DNA of 64,000 nt, taken from NCBI GenBank assembly GCA_944323035.1, contig CALUQY010000001.1, positions 129,131 to 193,130 on the forward strand. Reading direction: 5' to 3'. Under the pieces are notes generated by a model. It saw nothing but the letters and a program-made list of their open reading frames with translations. It was not told the origin of the DNA and made no database searches. Every line of letters begins with the position of its first letter. The first letter of the stretch is position 1. Below, piece after piece: positions 20,369-34,603 of this stretch. This DNA comes from Candidatus Gastranaerophilales bacterium (GTDB lineage: Bacteria > Cyanobacteriota > Vampirovibrionia > Gastranaerophilales > Gastranaerophilaceae). Both the position numbers and the translations under genes were made by a program.

Positions 20369-21841
20369 ATGTTTAAAAACAAGAAAATGCAATATGTTAT
20401 CAAAACCTGTTCCAGCGAGGACACGCAGGCACTGCAAAATCTCTTAAACGAAATGTCCATGAACGGCTGGGAACTTTACACTATTAACGAGGTCGAAGTT
20501 GACGACGGTTATCAGTATAACTGCATTTTTATGAAAGAATCCGAGGAAGAGAATTACACTCAAAATACGGATGAAATTAATATTTCCAACTTCAAAAGCC
20601 AGATGGAAAAGCTCCTTTCGCCAAAACTTACTCCTTATGAAGCCTGCCTTGAAATTCAACAAAAAATCAAGGAAGTAAAAAATAAAATTGCAAAAGCCAA
20701 AAAAGAGCTTGAGAACGAAGCGCCGGCATCTTTGGGCAGAAAAAGGCTTAACGACAGGATTTCCTCCGGTCTGCGGGAACTTGATGAACTCAAACGCCAG
20801 CTTGCCGAAACAACTTCTCCTGACGGTATGTATAAAAAACTCCGCGAGGACAAACTGGCTATATCACTGAGTGAAGAAATTTTAGGCTATATTGATGCAG
20901 AGCAGGACATTGATGAAGAGGAACTGGTTGCAGAAACTGTCCGTTTGAGATTAAAACTCACCGAAGAACTCGGCTATGTTATCCCGAAGATTATTTTCAA
21001 AGATGATGAAACCCTGAATCCGTATGAATATTCAATCAAAATCCGTGGGTTTGAGGTATTCAGAGGTACGGTCTATCCTAATTACCTGATGTTTTTCACC
21101 GACAGTCTTTTGACCACGAAAAAGATGAAGGACGCAATTTACGATACAGACGAAATCACGGGTAAAAAAATCGTTTGGGTTCCGAAAGAAAAATGCAAAG
21201 ATTTCTGGGAAAAAGGAATCTCCGGTGCACAGTGCATAACCCGCGCACTGGAATTTATTGCGGTAAAATTTGTCGATGAAATTCTTGACTACAACGAACT
21301 CGATAACTACATTGAAGTCGTTGACGAAAATAACTCCTATTTGATCGAAAACCTTATTCCCGAGTTTTTAAGCCTCGCGGATTTAAGATACATCCTCACA
21401 AGCCTTATTAATGAAAAAGTTTCGATAAAGGATATTACATTTATCTTAGAAAAGATAAACGATTTTGCAAACGATTACGACAAATCTGATATCCTTCGCA
21501 AACTGCGGCTTTCAATCGGACGACAGATTGCTAAAAACTACATAAATGAAGAAGGAATTATTCAGGCAATCGAAATCACGGAAGATTCGCTTTTGAACGT
21601 ATGCGAAACAAGCGTTGAAGAAGACGAAGAGATAATAAAAATTGACGCTCACTACGCGGATCAATTAGCCAAAAAGATTGAAAAACTTATGAAAAAGTAT
21701 GACTGTAAGACCGTTATCGCACCGCTTGAATTCAGACATCTGCTTTTCAAAATGCTTTCGAGCTACTTTAATGAAGTTGCGGTGCTTGCACGCGAAGAAA
21801 TTTCTTTCTACGCACCTGTTGAAATCTTTGAGGAACTATAA
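20369..21841 (+). CDS. Soluble FlhA cytoplasmic-domain (FHIPEP) protein with DUF4177-like N-terminus
   Basis: 490 residues. The N-terminus (about 7-57, NLLNEMSMNGWELYTINEVE) resembles DUF4177. A Lys/Glu coiled coil occupies about 70-150. From about 175 to the end the protein follows the FlhA cytoplasmic domain: ELGYVIPKIIFKDDETLNPY, YSIKIRGFEVFRG, IPEFLSLADLRYILTSLINE, KVSIKDITFILE and a final APLEFRHLLFKML. There is no membrane segment, whereas FlhA/SctV has eight. Known FlhA-C role: docking ring for export substrates and chaperones. A good GGGAG site precedes the ATG. It lies 2 nt from the next gene. This looks like a fusion or derivative, not a fragment. Confidence 0.75.
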   Translation: MFKNKKMQYVIKTCSSEDTQALQNLLNEMSMNGWELYTINEVEVDDGYQYNCIFMKESEEENYTQNTDEINISNFKSQMEKLLSPKLTPYEACLEIQQKIKEVKNKIAKAKKELENEAPASLGRKRLNDRISSGLRELDELKRQLAETTSPDGMYKKLREDKLAISLSEEILGYIDAEQDIDEEELVAETVRLRLKLTEELGYVIPKIIFKDDETLNPYEYSIKIRGFEVFRGTVYPNYLMFFTDSLLTTKKMKDAIYDTDEITGKKIVWVPKEKCKDFWEKGISGAQCITRALEFIAVKFVDEILDYNELDNYIEVVDENNSYLIENLIPEFLSLADLRYILTSLINEKVSIKDITFILEKINDFANDYDKSDILRKLRLSIGRQIAKNYINEEGIIQAIEITEDSLLNVCETSVEEDEEIIKIDAHYADQLAKKIEKLMKKYDCKTVIAPLEFRHLLFKMLSSYFNEVAVLAREEISFYAPVEIFEEL

Positions 21842-21843
21842 AA

Positions 21844-22365
21844 ATGACAAACCGCATCGTAATTTTTTCGGGTAAACAGTTTTCTGGCAAGGACACTCTT
21901 GCAAAATTAATGCTTGAAAAAATGCCGACCTTCCGGCGTTTCGCAATGGGGGACGTGATAAAAGATACCTTTGCTAAACAAAAAGGCATCACCGTTGCTG
22001 AAATTGAAGCCAACAAACCTTTCTACAGGCCGGAGCTCATAAAACTCGGCGACTGGGGAAGAAAGCAGGATCCTGATTACTGGCTGAAGAAAATCGTTTC
22101 GCAGGACGGCGACATATTTGTGACGGATGTCAGGAAACTGCACGAATACGAGGTATTTAAAGAAGCCGGCGCAAAATCAATCCGCGTAGAAGCACCGCGT
22201 GAAATAAGAGCGCAGCGTGGAAAGCTTGTGAGCGAAAATGATTCAACCGAAACCGAACTGGATAACATCAAAGATTGGGATTTTGTAGTCCACAACGACT
22301 CCGACTACGAAAGCTTAAAATCAAAGGCTCTGGAACTTGTAAAAGCCCTGAATGATAAATCTTAA
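21844..22365 (+). CDS. Nucleotide-kinase-like P-loop protein
   Basis: 173 residues. The P-loop GKQFSGKDT (residues 10-18) is followed by FAMGDVIKDTFAKQKG, RPELIKLGDWGRKQDPDYW and FVTDVRKLHEYEVFKEAGA. This arrangement resembles deoxynucleotide monophosphate kinases and phosphomevalonate-kinase-like proteins. The phosphate acceptor is not identifiable. It starts 2 nt after the FlhA-C gene, so translation is coupled. It overlaps the convergent small gene at 22362 by 4 nt. Confidence 0.75.
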   Translation: MTNRIVIFSGKQFSGKDTLAKLMLEKMPTFRRFAMGDVIKDTFAKQKGITVAEIEANKPFYRPELIKLGDWGRKQDPDYWLKKIVSQDGDIFVTDVRKLHEYEVFKEAGAKSIRVEAPREIRAQRGKLVSENDSTETELDNIKDWDFVVHNDSDYESLKSKALELVKALNDKS

Positions 22366-30003: not shown

Positions 30004-30959
30004 GCACTATGAGGGACTGGCTCGAGTGCGTAAGAGCCTATTCAATACCTATTACGGTGATGTCGTGGGCTGTGGTTTTCGCATACGGGCTTAAAGCGGG
30101 CGGCGACCTCCGGCTCGGATTGCTTGCAGGTATCGGGATTGAACTTGCACACCTTGCGACAAACCTTGTAGACGATTATCTGGATTACAAAATAATCTGC
30201 CGTGACAAAAATTTCCACAATACCGTTCAAAAAGGTAAATGCAGGCTGATTTGTCAGGGGATTATCAGCCACAGGCAAATAGGTATTGCAATAATAATTC
30301 TGTGCACAATCGCCGCATTAATCGGTATAACGCTCGTTTTTCTGAGCGGGCCGCATGTATGGTGGCTTATGGCAATAGGCGCCACGGCAGTCCTATTTTA
30401 TCAAAAATGCTCGCTTATCGGATGCAGCGAACTCGCAGTCGGTATCGTCTACGGCCCGCTGCTCTTTGAAGGCACTTATTACGTTATGACCGGAAGTTTT
30501 TCGTGGGAAGTTCTACTGCTTTCGCTCGCAAGTGTTATGTTTTCCGAGCAATTCCTCTACACTCACACCGTTCTTGACTATGACGGAGATATGATTTCGC
30601 ACAAAAAAACTCTTGCCTGCCGCATCGGCAACAAAAATAAAGCGCTTATTCTGCTTATTGTTTTTTTTGCAATCGGGTTTATTTCACTTGGTGCGCTAAC
30701 CTTTATGAGCGGGAATTTCCTCTATCTTGCAGGATTTTTAACCATCCCCTATATAATCTGGCTTTTTAAAGAACTGCGCCGGTTTAATAGTGACAAAACA
30801 GTTATTCCGCGCATAAACAAACTAAACTTCCCGCTCGACAACTGGGAACAGGTAGTCAAAGACGGTGCAGAAAGTTTTTACTTTCGTCTGCTTTTATCGC
30901 GCAATATTATGATGTATATGGCGCTGATTTTAATCTGCGCAATCGCATTCGGGGCTTAG
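30000..30959 (+). CDS. UbiA-family membrane prenyltransferase
   Basis: 319 residues, about nine membrane spans. The two Asp-rich motifs are present: NLVDDYLDYK (about 56-65) and DYDGDMISHKKTLACRIG (about 195-212). Family members attach isoprenoid chains to aromatic acceptors (MenA, UbiA) or other acceptors. It fits the MenA-like group loosely. No quinone pathway gene is nearby, so the acceptor is unknown. It is coupled to the 72-residue gene upstream and overlaps the convergent fliR by 4 nt. Confidence 0.82.
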   Translation: MSTMRDWLECVRAYSIPITVMSWAVVFAYGLKAGGDLRLGLLAGIGIELAHLATNLVDDYLDYKIICRDKNFHNTVQKGKCRLICQGIISHRQIGIAIIILCTIAALIGITLVFLSGPHVWWLMAIGATAVLFYQKCSLIGCSELAVGIVYGPLLFEGTYYVMTGSFSWEVLLLSLASVMFSEQFLYTHTVLDYDGDMISHKKTLACRIGNKNKALILLIVFFAIGFISLGALTFMSGNFLYLAGFLTIPYIIWLFKELRRFNSDKTVIPRINKLNFPLDNWEQVVKDGAESFYFRLLLSRNIMMYMALILICAIAFGA

Positions 30960-31741
30960 AATATGCCGCTATATGAGGTCAAATAATCCTGAATAACATT
31001 AAACAGCATCGGCAAAATCCAAACCATTATTGCCGCCCCCAGAACCGGTTTGAAAAGAAAGCTTAACTGGAATACGTTTACCTGCGGAGCTGTTTTTGAA
31101 ATTACTCCAAGAATAATATCTTGTCCCAGAGTTGCCAGAAGCACAGGGGATGCCAGTTGCAAGCCCATATAAAGAACATTTGAGGTGATTTTAACCAAAT
31201 AATCCAGATTAACAAGTTTTTCAAGAGGTATTGAAACAGCATATAGAGGGAAAATCTCAAAACTTCTCATAAATGCATTCATCATCCAGTAAACACCGCC
31301 GATATGAATAAAAATACACAATGCAAATAAAGAAAATAATTTCCCCAGAATTGACACCTGACTTGACGTTGTAGGATCCAGAACCATTGCTGATGAAAGC
31401 CCCATTTGCATATTAATCATATCAGCACCAGCTTCAATTGCGATTAAAATTACCTGTGCAACGTAACCTAAAAGCCCGCCGACAACGAAATTCAAAACAA
31501 TCGACAACAGCAGTGAATCCTTAAACAACTCTCCCTCAGGTTTCAAAACCATAGTGATTACAACCGTCAGAATAAATACAAGACACAGCTTCACCATGCC
31601 GGGAATTTCTTTTCTGTTCAAAACCGGCGCCCAGCGTGAAAAACCTATCAAACGCGAAAACACCAAAATTCCCGCAATTAAATATTCATTTAATTCCGGA
31701 AAAATCTTCACAAGTTCTGTCAAAAAATCAAACCCGTTCAT
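30956..31741 (-). CDS. fliR: Flagellar/type III export gate protein FliR
   Basis: 261 residues with several membrane spans. Recognisable SctT/FliR features: VFSRLIGFSRWAPVLNRKEI with the PGMVKLCLVF segment, YVAQVILIAIEAGADMINMQ and LLATLGQDIILGVISKTAPQ plus NVFQLSFLFKPVLG. Known role: part of the FliP5Q4R1 pore of the export apparatus. It is last in a fliM/N-fliO-fliP-fliQ-fliR series. flhB does not follow; the adjacent gene is unrelated and convergent. Confidence 0.92.
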   Translation of the reverse strand: MNGFDFLTELVKIFPELNEYLIAGILVFSRLIGFSRWAPVLNRKEIPGMVKLCLVFILTVVITMVLKPEGELFKDSLLLSIVLNFVVGGLLGYVAQVILIAIEAGADMINMQMGLSSAMVLDPTTSSQVSILGKLFSLFALCIFIHIGGVYWMMNAFMRSFEIFPLYAVSIPLEKLVNLDYLVKITSNVLYMGLQLASPVLLATLGQDIILGVISKTAPQVNVFQLSFLFKPVLGAAIMVWILPMLFNVIQDYLTSYSGIF

Positions 31742-31758
31742 CTAAACCGCCTTACAAC

Positions 31759-32253
31759 CTATTGACCTCTCATAATCTGGTTTGTTTCAATCAAATTAGG
31801 ACGAGGCATTGGTGTTCTTCGTGACGGATAATATTTCGTTTTTTCATAATTATCAATATAAGGAACCTTACCTGGATTTTTCATAATCTCGTTTATATCA
31901 GGAACATTTTTAAATTTATCCATTTCCATTTCCTTTTGAAATGGTGTTGTATATTTATAATAATCAGAGGACAACACGAAACTATCATTCTTAGGTAAAA
32001 CGTTAAACGCAAGCCCCATTCCCTGAATAAAAAAGTTATTCAGCATATTCATAAACGCATATCCGCCGATAATAATAACAAGGAATACCCCGAGAATCTT
32101 CGGCGCTGCAGCAATGGTTTGCTCCTGAACCTGTGTTACAGCCTGCAAAATACCGACAACAAGACCAATCCCCGCGGCCACAAGTACGCACGGCATTGAG
32201 ATAGAAAGCATTACCAGAAAACCTTTTGCTAAATATTCAACCATAAGTTCCAT
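31759..32253 (-). CDS. fliQ: FliQ with a long C-terminal extension
   Basis: 164 residues. The first 88 or so are a normal FliQ: two spans (SISMPCVLVAAGIGLVVGIL, VFLVIIIGGYAFMNML) linked by QAVTQVQEQTIAAAPKIL. Typical FliQ is about 89 residues, so the C-terminal 75 residues are extra. They are hydrophilic and Tyr/Lys/Pro-rich (FQKEMEMDKFKNVPDINEIM, YPSRRTPMPRP). FliQ surrounds FliPR in the export gate. The tail would lie at the gate rim, probably in the cytoplasm if orientation follows the model. A stop-codon or frame error does not explain it, since the extension is in frame and ends before fliR. Confidence 0.92.
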   Translation of the reverse strand: MELMVEYLAKGFLVMLSISMPCVLVAAGIGLVVGILQAVTQVQEQTIAAAPKILGVFLVIIIGGYAFMNMLNNFFIQGMGLAFNVLPKNDSFVLSSDYYKYTTPFQKEMEMDKFKNVPDINEIMKNPGKVPYIDNYEKTKYYPSRRTPMPRPNLIETNQIMRGQ

Positions 32254-32273
32254 AATTAAACGCCCTCACATTC

Positions 32274-32915
32274 CTAGTTATAACTCGTTACCAGACCCTG
32301 AACAATCAGTCCCCAGCCGTCAACCGCAATAAAAATAAGCAGTTTAAACGGCAAAGAAATAATCGTCGGTGACAGCATAAACATACCAAGTGCCAGCAAA
32401 ATGTTTGCAACAACAAGATCCAGTACAATAAACGGTACAAAAATTATAAACCCGATTTCAAACGCGGTTTTTAATTCACTCATAATATACGCCGGCGCCA
32501 CCTGCCAGATTGTTATTTCATCAGGATCTTTCGGCGGAGTTTTCTGCGAAAGCTCAATAAAAAACGCTAAATCGCTTTCCCGCGTCTGCTTCATCATAAA
32601 CTCTTTCAATGGCTTGGAACCCTCACTTATCGCCTCAACGATATTCTGATTTTTTTGATATGGAACAGATCCCATTTCATACATTTTTGAGAATGTTCCG
32701 CCCATTGTATAAAAGGTTAAAACCATAGAAAGCCCTATGATAACAATACTCGGCGGCACCTGCTGGGTACCCATAGCCGTTTTCAACATGGAAAACACTA
32801 TTGCAAACCGCAAAAAACTTGTCATACAGCAAAAGATAAACGGAATCAGTGAAAATACCGTCATAACTATAAGCAATTGTAAAACAGGATTTATATCTTT
32901 TATCACGCTATCCAT
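32274..32915 (-). CDS. fliP: Flagellar/type III export gate protein FliP
   Basis: 213 residues with four membrane spans. Signatures: MTSFLRFAIVFSMLKTAMGTQQVPP, PAYIMSELKTAFEIGFIIFVPFIVLDLVVANILLALGMFM in pieces, and PFKLLIFIAVDGWGLI. It lacks the cleavable signal peptide of enterobacterial FliP and so resembles injectisome SctR. AGGAG precedes the ATG. Core of the export pore with FliQ and FliR. Confidence 0.94.
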   Translation of the reverse strand: MDSVIKDINPVLQLLIVMTVFSLIPFIFCCMTSFLRFAIVFSMLKTAMGTQQVPPSIVIIGLSMVLTFYTMGGTFSKMYEMGSVPYQKNQNIVEAISEGSKPLKEFMMKQTRESDLAFFIELSQKTPPKDPDEITIWQVAPAYIMSELKTAFEIGFIIFVPFIVLDLVVANILLALGMFMLSPTIISLPFKLLIFIAVDGWGLIVQGLVTSYN

Positions 32916-32927
32916 TTCTTCTATCTC

Positions 32928-33425
32928 CTAAAGCAGTTCTTCGCCGCCACGGCCAGTTGAGCCCGGTACCGTGCCCGGCTTCGCTGTCGCATCTGCCACT
33001 CCAAACTTTCGCTCTTCGCGAAATTTTCTCGGGCTGCTGATTATGTTCCTGAGTATGGTAGTGGAATCTTTTCTTACAACTTCACCGCCTGAATATAAAT
33101 TTTCCATATCAAATTCAATATCCCGTGCACTGCTAATTTCCGGTCTGTGCTCCGGCAAAGTTTGAGGCGCCCCCTCTCCCTGCAATTTAGAAAGAAAAGT
33201 CGTTCTTTCCGCATCAGATGCGATTAAAAACTTTTCACTGCCCGCTCTTACAACGTACAATTGCTTACGAACCCCTAAAGATACACAATCTTCTATCTCA
33301 AGGAATTTTGACGCAGAAACGCGGCTGTTGTTAACAGAGCACTTCTTATAGACGAATAACGCAAGGAAAATCGCGCCAATCATCGCAGTCGTATAAACAG
33401 TGAATGTTAAAATGTAAGAAGTCAC
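32928..33425 (-). CDS. fliO: FliO-like export gate assembly protein
   Basis: 165 residues. One N-terminal span (YTTAMIGAIFLALFVYKKC) is followed by the short FliO-type cytoplasmic domain (VSLGVRKQLYVVRAGSEKFLIASDAERTTFL in part) and a charged tail. Known role: chaperone for FliP oligomer assembly. The start is GTG, and its G is shared with the TAG stop of the upstream gene (TAGTG), so translation is tightly coupled. Confidence 0.8.
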   Translation of the reverse strand: MTSYILTFTVYTTAMIGAIFLALFVYKKCSVNNSRVSASKFLEIEDCVSLGVRKQLYVVRAGSEKFLIASDAERTTFLSKLQGEGAPQTLPEHRPEISSARDIEFDMENLYSGGEVVRKDSTTILRNIISSPRKFREERKFGVADATAKPGTVPGSTGRGGEELL

Positions 33426-34603
33426 TAAATATCCTCCTCAAGATCAAAGTCGCTGTAATCAAATTCTTCATCATCACCGCCGCCGGTACTGGCTTCAACT
33501 CCCGGAACATCCGGTACATCTACAGGGATTTCACTATCTGCCGGCGGCGCTGCCGCAGGAGAAGAAGCCTGCGGCTGTACATACGTTTCTTCCGGAGCTT
33601 TCGGCGCCAGAACCTCGGTAATCTTAACACCGTATTTGTCATTAACAATAACCAGTTCCCCGCAGGCTATCGGCTTATCTTCCACGGTTAACGTGACACG
33701 GTTTTGATAAATTGAAGTCAAATCAACAACCATGCCGGACTGAATTTTCTTCAACTCACCAAGTGTTATATCGACAGCATCAAAATTCGCAACCATTTCA
33801 ACTTCAATACTATCCCAAATATTTATATCTTTTTCTGACACCTCAGAACCTCCATCATTATCAATTGGTACAACCAGACTCAAGTTCGGCTTCAATAACA
33901 CATCTGTTTCATAATCCCGGAACTTCAATTTCATTTTATCTGTATTACTTGACTCAAAAACGACCATATCTTCAACTTCCAGATGTTTTACATCATACAG
34001 TGAAAAAGTAGTCTTTCCGACCTCAAGGCTGACAGAAATCGTACTTTTTTCAAACTGGCTAACCGGAAAATTTTCGCTTACCTGAATTTCTTCAGGCTGA
34101 ACGAGAACATCAGGCAGAGTTATAACAAATCTGCCGGATTTACCGGTCGAACCGTCCGTAAGAACAAATCCCAGATATACGACATCAAAATTTGTTCTGG
34201 TAAGCGTTGGCGGAGCGGGTTTTAAAAACTTCACAACCGAACGGTACATACAGTCATTAAAAGTTGTTATTATCTTTGTTTCAAGATCGGTAAGCTTATT
34301 CAAATCTATCTTCTTGGTGCCGGATTTCCCCAGAACCTTATCCAGAACAAGCCCGATAGCGGTTTCAGACAATCTAAAAAAAACATCATGTTGCTTATCA
34401 ATCTTGACCTTTGTGACGAAATAGGAATCTTTATCGGCAAGAGTGTTGATATTTTTGCACACACCAAGCAGGGTAAACGTAAAATCTTCGGCGAAAAAAT
34501 CGTCAAAAACCTCCTGTACGACCGGCGGAAACGTTTTTTGATACCAGTCGTACTGATAGGATAGTTCATTAGTTGTTACTACATTAACGCTTTGAGTACT
34601 CAT
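33425..34603 (-). CDS. FliM/FliN-type protein with two SpoA domains
   Basis: 392 residues. The N-terminal domain (about 15-190) is FliM-like or SctQ-like but weak. A first SpoA domain (about 195-265, STISVSLEVGKTTFSLYDVK) and a second (about 283-350, VEMVANFDAVDITLGELKKI) follow, then an acidic Pro/Ala-rich tail. Tandem SpoA domains are typical of injectisome SctQ and of FliM-FliN fusions. Known role: cytoplasmic sorting platform or C-ring. It heads the export gene cluster. No FliG, FliF or CheY target is nearby. Confidence 0.82.
   Translation of the reverse strand: MSTQSVNVVTTNELSYQYDWYQKTFPPVVQEVFDDFFAEDFTFTLLGVCKNINTLADKDSYFVTKVKIDKQHDVFFRLSETAIGLVLDKVLGKSGTKKIDLNKLTDLETKIITTFNDCMYRSVVKFLKPAPPTLTRTNFDVVYLGFVLTDGSTGKSGRFVITLPDVLVQPEEIQVSENFPVSQFEKSTISVSLEVGKTTFSLYDVKHLEVEDMVVFESSNTDKMKLKFRDYETDVLLKPNLSLVVPIDNDGGSEVSEKDINIWDSIEVEMVANFDAVDITLGELKKIQSGMVVDLTSIYQNRVTLTVEDKPIACGELVIVNDKYGVKITEVLAPKAPEETYVQPQASSPAAAPPADSEIPVDVPDVPGVEASTGGGDDEEFDYSDFDLEEDI

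Follow-up and report, generated by a model that had tools for sequence, protein, structure and literature searches.

A conserved soluble paralogue of the cytoplasmic domain of FlhA in Gastranaerophilales, and its possible role beside a flagellin-less type III secretion system

The locus and the protein

The DNA analyzed here (the window, a stretch of 64,000 nucleotides from a Candidatus Gastranaerophilales genome) carries a gene for a soluble relative of the FlhA cytoplasmic domain (FlhA-C), together with a kinase-like neighbor and part of a secretion gene set (Table 1). FlhA is the membrane gate of flagellar and type III secretion machines, and its cytoplasmic ring receives chaperones and their substrates. 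The open reading frame starts with ATG, and the start Met is conserved across the orthologue alignment.

Table 1. Features at and near the soluble FlhA-C gene, with window positions
Feature	Position	Strand	Basis or remark
Gene for 490-aa soluble FlhA-C paralogue	20369..21841	+	ORF, Pfam, orthologue alignment, dN/dS
DUF4177-like beta-alpha-beta-beta domain (tentative label), residues 8-57	20390..20539	+	Mean column identity 0.74
Predicted helical hairpin (antiparallel coiled coil), residues 89-148	20633..20812	+	AlphaFold2; conserved alignment columns
FlhA-linker-like motif SPD-x-MY-x-x-L, residues 150-160	20816..20848	+	Orthologue alignment
FlhA-C with altered chaperone groove, residues 160-490	20846..21838	+	Pfam, profile, structure match
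Deoxynucleotide-monophosphate-kinase-like gene, 2 bp gap downstream of soluble FlhA-C gene	21844..22365	+	Pfam; same genus only
fliMN-fliO-fliP-fliQ-fliR of second, flagellin-less T3SS	30956..34603	-	Context, 9 kb off

The window protein is a soluble FlhA-C without the membrane half. Residues 144 to 479 match positions 314 to 653 of the 657 in the Pfam FHIPEP model (PF00771; E 4.2e-46), with 158 bits against a cutoff of 29, which places them in the FlhA-C domain family, and model positions 1 to 313 find no match. The NCBIfam FlhA model gives E 9.5e-42, far below the equivalog cutoff because the membrane half is absent; the scores are 143 bits of the 772 required for TIGR01398 and 84 of 692 for TIGR01399, so that the protein is an equivalog of neither FlhA nor SctV. 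A phmmer comparison with the FlhA-C of 3mix returns E 2.9e-20, and a profile built from 41 orthologues hits FlhA-C and SctV-C domains of known structure, with 3mix again the best (E 2.1e-44). In the AlphaFold2 model (mean pLDDT 76, pTM 0.55), residues 159 to 490 align with FlhA-C crystal chains, 6ch2 among them, at Z 20; the rmsd is large, probably because the arrangement of subdomains is uncertain. Scanned for hydropathy, the full-length FlhA of the same genome shows six hydrophobic stretches; the 41 soluble orthologues show no FlhA-type membrane segments, and only 4 of them have any scan position above threshold, those marginally. The initial annotation had proposed just this arrangement, an FlhA-C in the C-terminal part with the eight-span N-terminal membrane domain missing, and both the domain match and the structural comparison bear it out.

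Compared with FlhA (PF00771; 3a5i, 6ch2, 3mix), the protein thus has the same cytoplasmic fold, linker, and buried invariant residues, but it lacks the membrane domain, carries an extra N-terminal domain and helical hairpin, and has an altered chaperone groove, with sequence identity of about 20%. The cytoplasmic fold is also that of SctV (YscV, InvA, MxiA, CdsV; Z about 12 to 18), from which the window protein likewise differs in lacking a membrane domain, its sequence being nearer to FlhA than to SctV.

Ahead of the FlhA-C, AlphaFold2 predicts a beta-alpha-beta-beta unit at residues 9 to 57, a flexible stretch, and two helices (residues 89 to 115 and 122 to 148) that form a hairpin, in agreement with the coiled-coil joint suggested earlier. 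Residues 8 to 57 are better conserved, at a mean column identity of 0.74, than the FlhA-C, at 0.58 to 0.70 (variable residues 396 to 425 left out). The initial annotation rightly saw this N terminus as DUF4177-like (PF13783). Position, length, and the predicted strand-helix-strand-strand order agree with the family, and 23 of 41 orthologues match it at E of 0.1 or less, weakly and with a best value of 0.002, but the window protein itself scores 13.9 bits, under the cutoff of 25. The label is therefore weak and tentative, if plausible. A search of the PDB yielded no sequence relative of the N-terminal domain, and fold comparison gave only matches to common small folds, at Z of 6.5 or less and none of them distinct. 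Our literature search found no description of a soluble FlhA with a fusion of this kind, as the initial annotation had supposed, nor did it bring up anything relevant on soluble FlhA or on type III systems of Gastranaerophilales.

Conservation and gene neighborhood

Of 97 family genomes, 92 carry a distinct, single-copy orthologue, 36 to 98% identical and nearly always about 490 aa long, and it also occurs in both further families sampled from the order Gastranaerophilales; many public assemblies named Candidatus Gastranaerophilales carry it as well, and through these matches the host of the window comes out as a member near Ca. Gastranaerophilus. Three records titled Fusobacterium sp. or Brachyspira sp. 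(L101, L115, and L159) have the gene and look like mislabeled Gastranaerophilales assemblies. The orthologue was seen only in this order: 10 genomes from other families of the class showed only full-length FlhA or other detached forms, as did the rest of the phylum sample. Among viral contigs no relative of the window protein was found, and a viral origin was dropped; in a plasmid search, the matches listed were ordinary full-length FlhA at about 21 to 25%.

The gene is under strong purifying selection, with dN/dS of about 0.02 against same-genus orthologues (dN 0.06 to 0.07, dS saturated). That it might be truncated flhA debris or the product of a misjoined contig would fit the presence of FlhA as its C-terminal half only. 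However, a complete flhA lies on another contig of the same genome (G000:C27:17788-19764), so the window gene is not a disrupted gate gene, and this, the orthologues of equal length in family genomes and named public assemblies alike, and the low dN/dS leave that explanation a negligible chance and rule out a pseudogene or assembly error.

The surroundings of the gene are less uniform than the gene itself. In 71 of 104 loci the immediate upstream neighbor, on the same strand and usually 2 to 11 bp away, is a uridine phosphorylase gene, and an unrelated pyrimidine-nucleoside phosphorylase takes the same place in 11 further loci, at -8 to 25 bp, so that nucleoside phosphorylases tightly adjoin the gene in 82 of the 104; these neighbor counts are not independent, because the loci come mostly from one clade. 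Farther upstream, skp and bamA are found in 12 of 23 diverse loci, and a 4-alpha-glucanotransferase-like gene is another usual neighbor. Family f3 instead has the gene immediately ahead of fliJ-fliK-flgD-flgE, whose hook genes look flagellar rather than part of the second T3SS, and in most genomes it is unlinked to secretion genes. The initial annotation also pointed out two neighbors. The adjacent kinase-like gene is present but restricted to the genus of the window, and a functional tie to it was set aside. The fliOPQR genes, described as 10 kb away, are indeed near, with fliR at 9.1 kb, but distance alone is no evidence of linkage, and by a rough estimate for a 1.9-Mb genome with several T3SS loci, a spacing of 9 kb is not beyond chance.

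A second secretion system and the origin of the soluble protein

Nearly all of the 97 family genomes encode a second, divergent FlhA (about 720 bits). In the window genome, where flagellin was not found, the gene for this FlhA is preceded by genes for FliE, FliF, a FliG-like protein, and FliH; the window itself encodes FliMN, FliO, FliP, FliQ, and FliR of the second system; and FlhB, FliJ, FlgB, FlgC, two FlgF/G-like proteins, and a 277-aa FlgE/F-like protein are encoded elsewhere. Counterparts of the last, 58 to 97% identical, occur in 10 further genomes of the order, both with and without flagella. Flagellin occurs in 41 of the 97 relatives, and 40 of these are exactly the genomes that have a canonical flagellar FlhA (manual comparison). 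The flagellin-less, flagellar-type T3SS (the window genes of Table 1; L083, L235, L236, and L237) is found in nearly every family genome, with or without flagella. Its FliG-like protein (L086:11718-12752 and orthologues) is divergent, matching Pfam FliG_N at E 0.02 only, and is present as two tandem copies in family f3, where the operon of the second system also holds a gene for an SLT lytic transglycosylase (L228:9485-10102). Earlier publications interpreted such partial sets of flagellar genes as incomplete flagella (PMC4040986, PMC5877343). The conservation of these sets points instead to a working, different machine that lacks a filament.

Phylogenetic analysis of 79 FlhA-C sequences unites the soluble proteins in one clade (SH-aLRT 100), which lies toward the class's non-flagellar FlhAs and by sequence indicates a single origin for the group. 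The profile of the soluble proteins scores 215 to 235 bits for the order's own non-flagellar FlhA, 194 to 201 bits for its equivalent in most of the class's remaining families, and 143 to 149 bits for the order's canonical flagellar FlhA; in addition, 16 consensus columns are common to the soluble proteins and both non-flagellar groups to the exclusion of the canonical FlhAs, with 4 showing the opposite. The soluble protein thus appears to descend from the FlhA of the second system and not from flagellar FlhA, although the soluble clade sits on a long stem and, by AU tests, could also attach deeper, between non-flagellar and canonical FlhAs. A plain flagellar duplicate was rejected, as the clade falls outside the canonical flagellar FlhAs and the host lacks flagellin. 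The order's non-flagellar FlhA (L001, L083-L088), which profile scores and shared residues make the nearest relative of the soluble protein, is a 700-aa membrane protein that, unlike the window protein, retains the residues of the chaperone groove.

Detached FlhA-C proteins of other kinds are present in the phylum. Genus g13 has a 593-aa protein (L313:3542-5323) whose N terminus matches the FliG-like protein of the second T3SS (E 1.9e-17) and is linked to a pair of membrane helices and an FlhA-C from which the groove segment is missing, and several Gastranaerophilaceae genera have FlhA-C-like proteins of 215 to 296 aa that also lack this segment (L314, L315, L316, and L317). In another class, two genomes encode fusions of an HTH_17 (excisionase-type) domain to soluble FlhA-C (L219:4815-6056 and L312:4765-6018; 65% identical), one of them divergent from fliP-fliR-flhB. 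Like the window protein, these fusions join a soluble FlhA-C to an added N-terminal domain within the same phylum, but they are a separate sequence lineage, from another class and with a DNA-binding-type N terminus. FlhA-C proteins of 400 to 620 aa with other N termini and no membrane domain, from the same class as these fusions, lie away from recognizable fli genes (L300, L303, L304, L306, L307, and L310). Across these proteins the attached parts are DUF4177-like, HTH, FliG-like with membrane helices, or long and helical. Judging from these forms in g13, in other genera, and in another class, the detachment of FlhA-C appears to have happened in the phylum on more than one occasion.

The chaperone groove and possible functions

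Mapped on Salmonella FlhA numbering, the soluble proteins retain the buried or structural residues R391, G399, P403, W465, L544, E559, R579, I586, R655, and E676. They also share the linker motif SPDxMYxxL with non-flagellar membrane FlhAs (NPNRMYERL, SPDMMYSLL); a hydrophobic residue of the FlhA linker inserts into the neighboring ring subunit (PMC8213127). The groove is another matter. In Salmonella, complexes of chaperone and substrate dock on FlhA-C, whose groove holds FliT and FliS, and mutation of F459 weakens the ternary complexes (PMC5932034). Among 30 soluble sequences, D456 is retained in 28, but F459 is replaced by T or S in all 30, T490 by R or K in 26, and H491 is lost in all 30. 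The window protein has D261, T264, and R292 at positions 456, 459, and 490, respectively, so that of the three docking residues only the first is kept, whereas the order's own membrane FlhA retains D456, Y459, T490, and H491. Because the replacement residues are themselves conserved, the groove looks re-specialized rather than decayed.

This bears on the suggestion that the protein is an adaptor, decoy, or regulator. A plain decoy would capture secretion chaperones in the cytosol and hold them off the gate, in keeping with the docking role of FlhA-C (PMC5932034) and with the nearly invariant charged D456; with the rest of the groove rewritten, and its new residues pointing to another partner, it is quite improbable. 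Adaptor or regulator remains the reading we favor. Tentatively, we infer that the window protein acts in the cytosol, as an accessory to the second T3SS or as its regulator, with a partner of its own. A soluble FlhA-C would have separated, a single time, from the line of gate proteins in the second, non-flagellar system and become fused, via the helical hairpin, to a small conserved N-terminal domain. With linker and core retained, it may dock to the ring of membrane FlhA or next to it. The rewritten groove would accept some partner that is not a chaperone of the FliS/FliT type, and the N-terminal domain and hairpin may recruit this partner or set the oligomeric state. Such a role is consistent with a truncated FlhA-C fold kept across the order under purifying selection, with the second-T3SS genes of a genome without flagellin, and with the profile scores and the 16 shared columns against 4; the linker motif, the f3 gene beside fliJ-fliK-flgD-flgE, and the separate FlhA-C that g13 joins to this system's FliG-like protein agree with it as well. 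The co-occurrence of the second T3SS and the soluble gene says little, because both are near universal in the order. Other Vampirovibrionia have a non-flagellar FlhA and no soluble protein, which is thus not required for the non-flagellar machine in general. Also weighing against the accessory role are the lack of secretion-gene linkage in most genomes, where bamA-skp, phosphorylase, or 4-alpha-glucanotransferase-like genes are the neighbors, the flagellar look of the f3 hook genes, and an AU test that allows more than one branching point.

The neighborhood links disagree with one another and are not independent, but they are the chief ground for considering a role outside secretion. The protein may have been repurposed in nucleoside salvage or envelope biogenesis, its ties to secretion being ancestral only, as the phosphorylases immediately upstream, the dNMP-kinase-like gene 2 bp downstream that the window genus has instead, and the loss of the canonical groove could suggest. 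We consider this somewhat unlikely, given that the loci are mostly of one clade, that neighbors vary among lineages while the gene is constant, and that the FlhA core and linker are retained. Alternatively, the N-terminal domain may provide an output, through nucleic acid or protein binding, in a gene regulator whose FlhA-C senses secretion substrates or the export state. The HTH_17 fusions of another class, with the one copy facing fliP-fliR-flhB, offer a precedent, and YjzH, from the DUF4177 family, has turned up in a proteome of RNA-bound proteins (PMC12456014), but this is unlikely for a protein whose N terminus is not predicted to be HTH, has no solved sequence relative or clear fold match, and belongs only weakly to DUF4177.

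It is possible, if doubtful, that detached FlhA-C is a recurring cytosolic module of non-photosynthetic Cyanobacteriota, reused several times with varied N termini, and that in Gastranaerophilales it serves as the soluble gate partner of an overlooked flagellin-less T3SS present across the order. Gastranaerophilales are Melainabacteria, non-photosynthetic relatives of cyanobacteria from animal guts, and they keep a soluble FlhA-C beside a complete gate protein. A conserved, free ring domain with a changed groove would represent a second, detachable use of FlhA-C, as an adaptor or sensor, and would offer a way into the exports of the flagellin-less T3SS that nearly all members of this common gut lineage carry.
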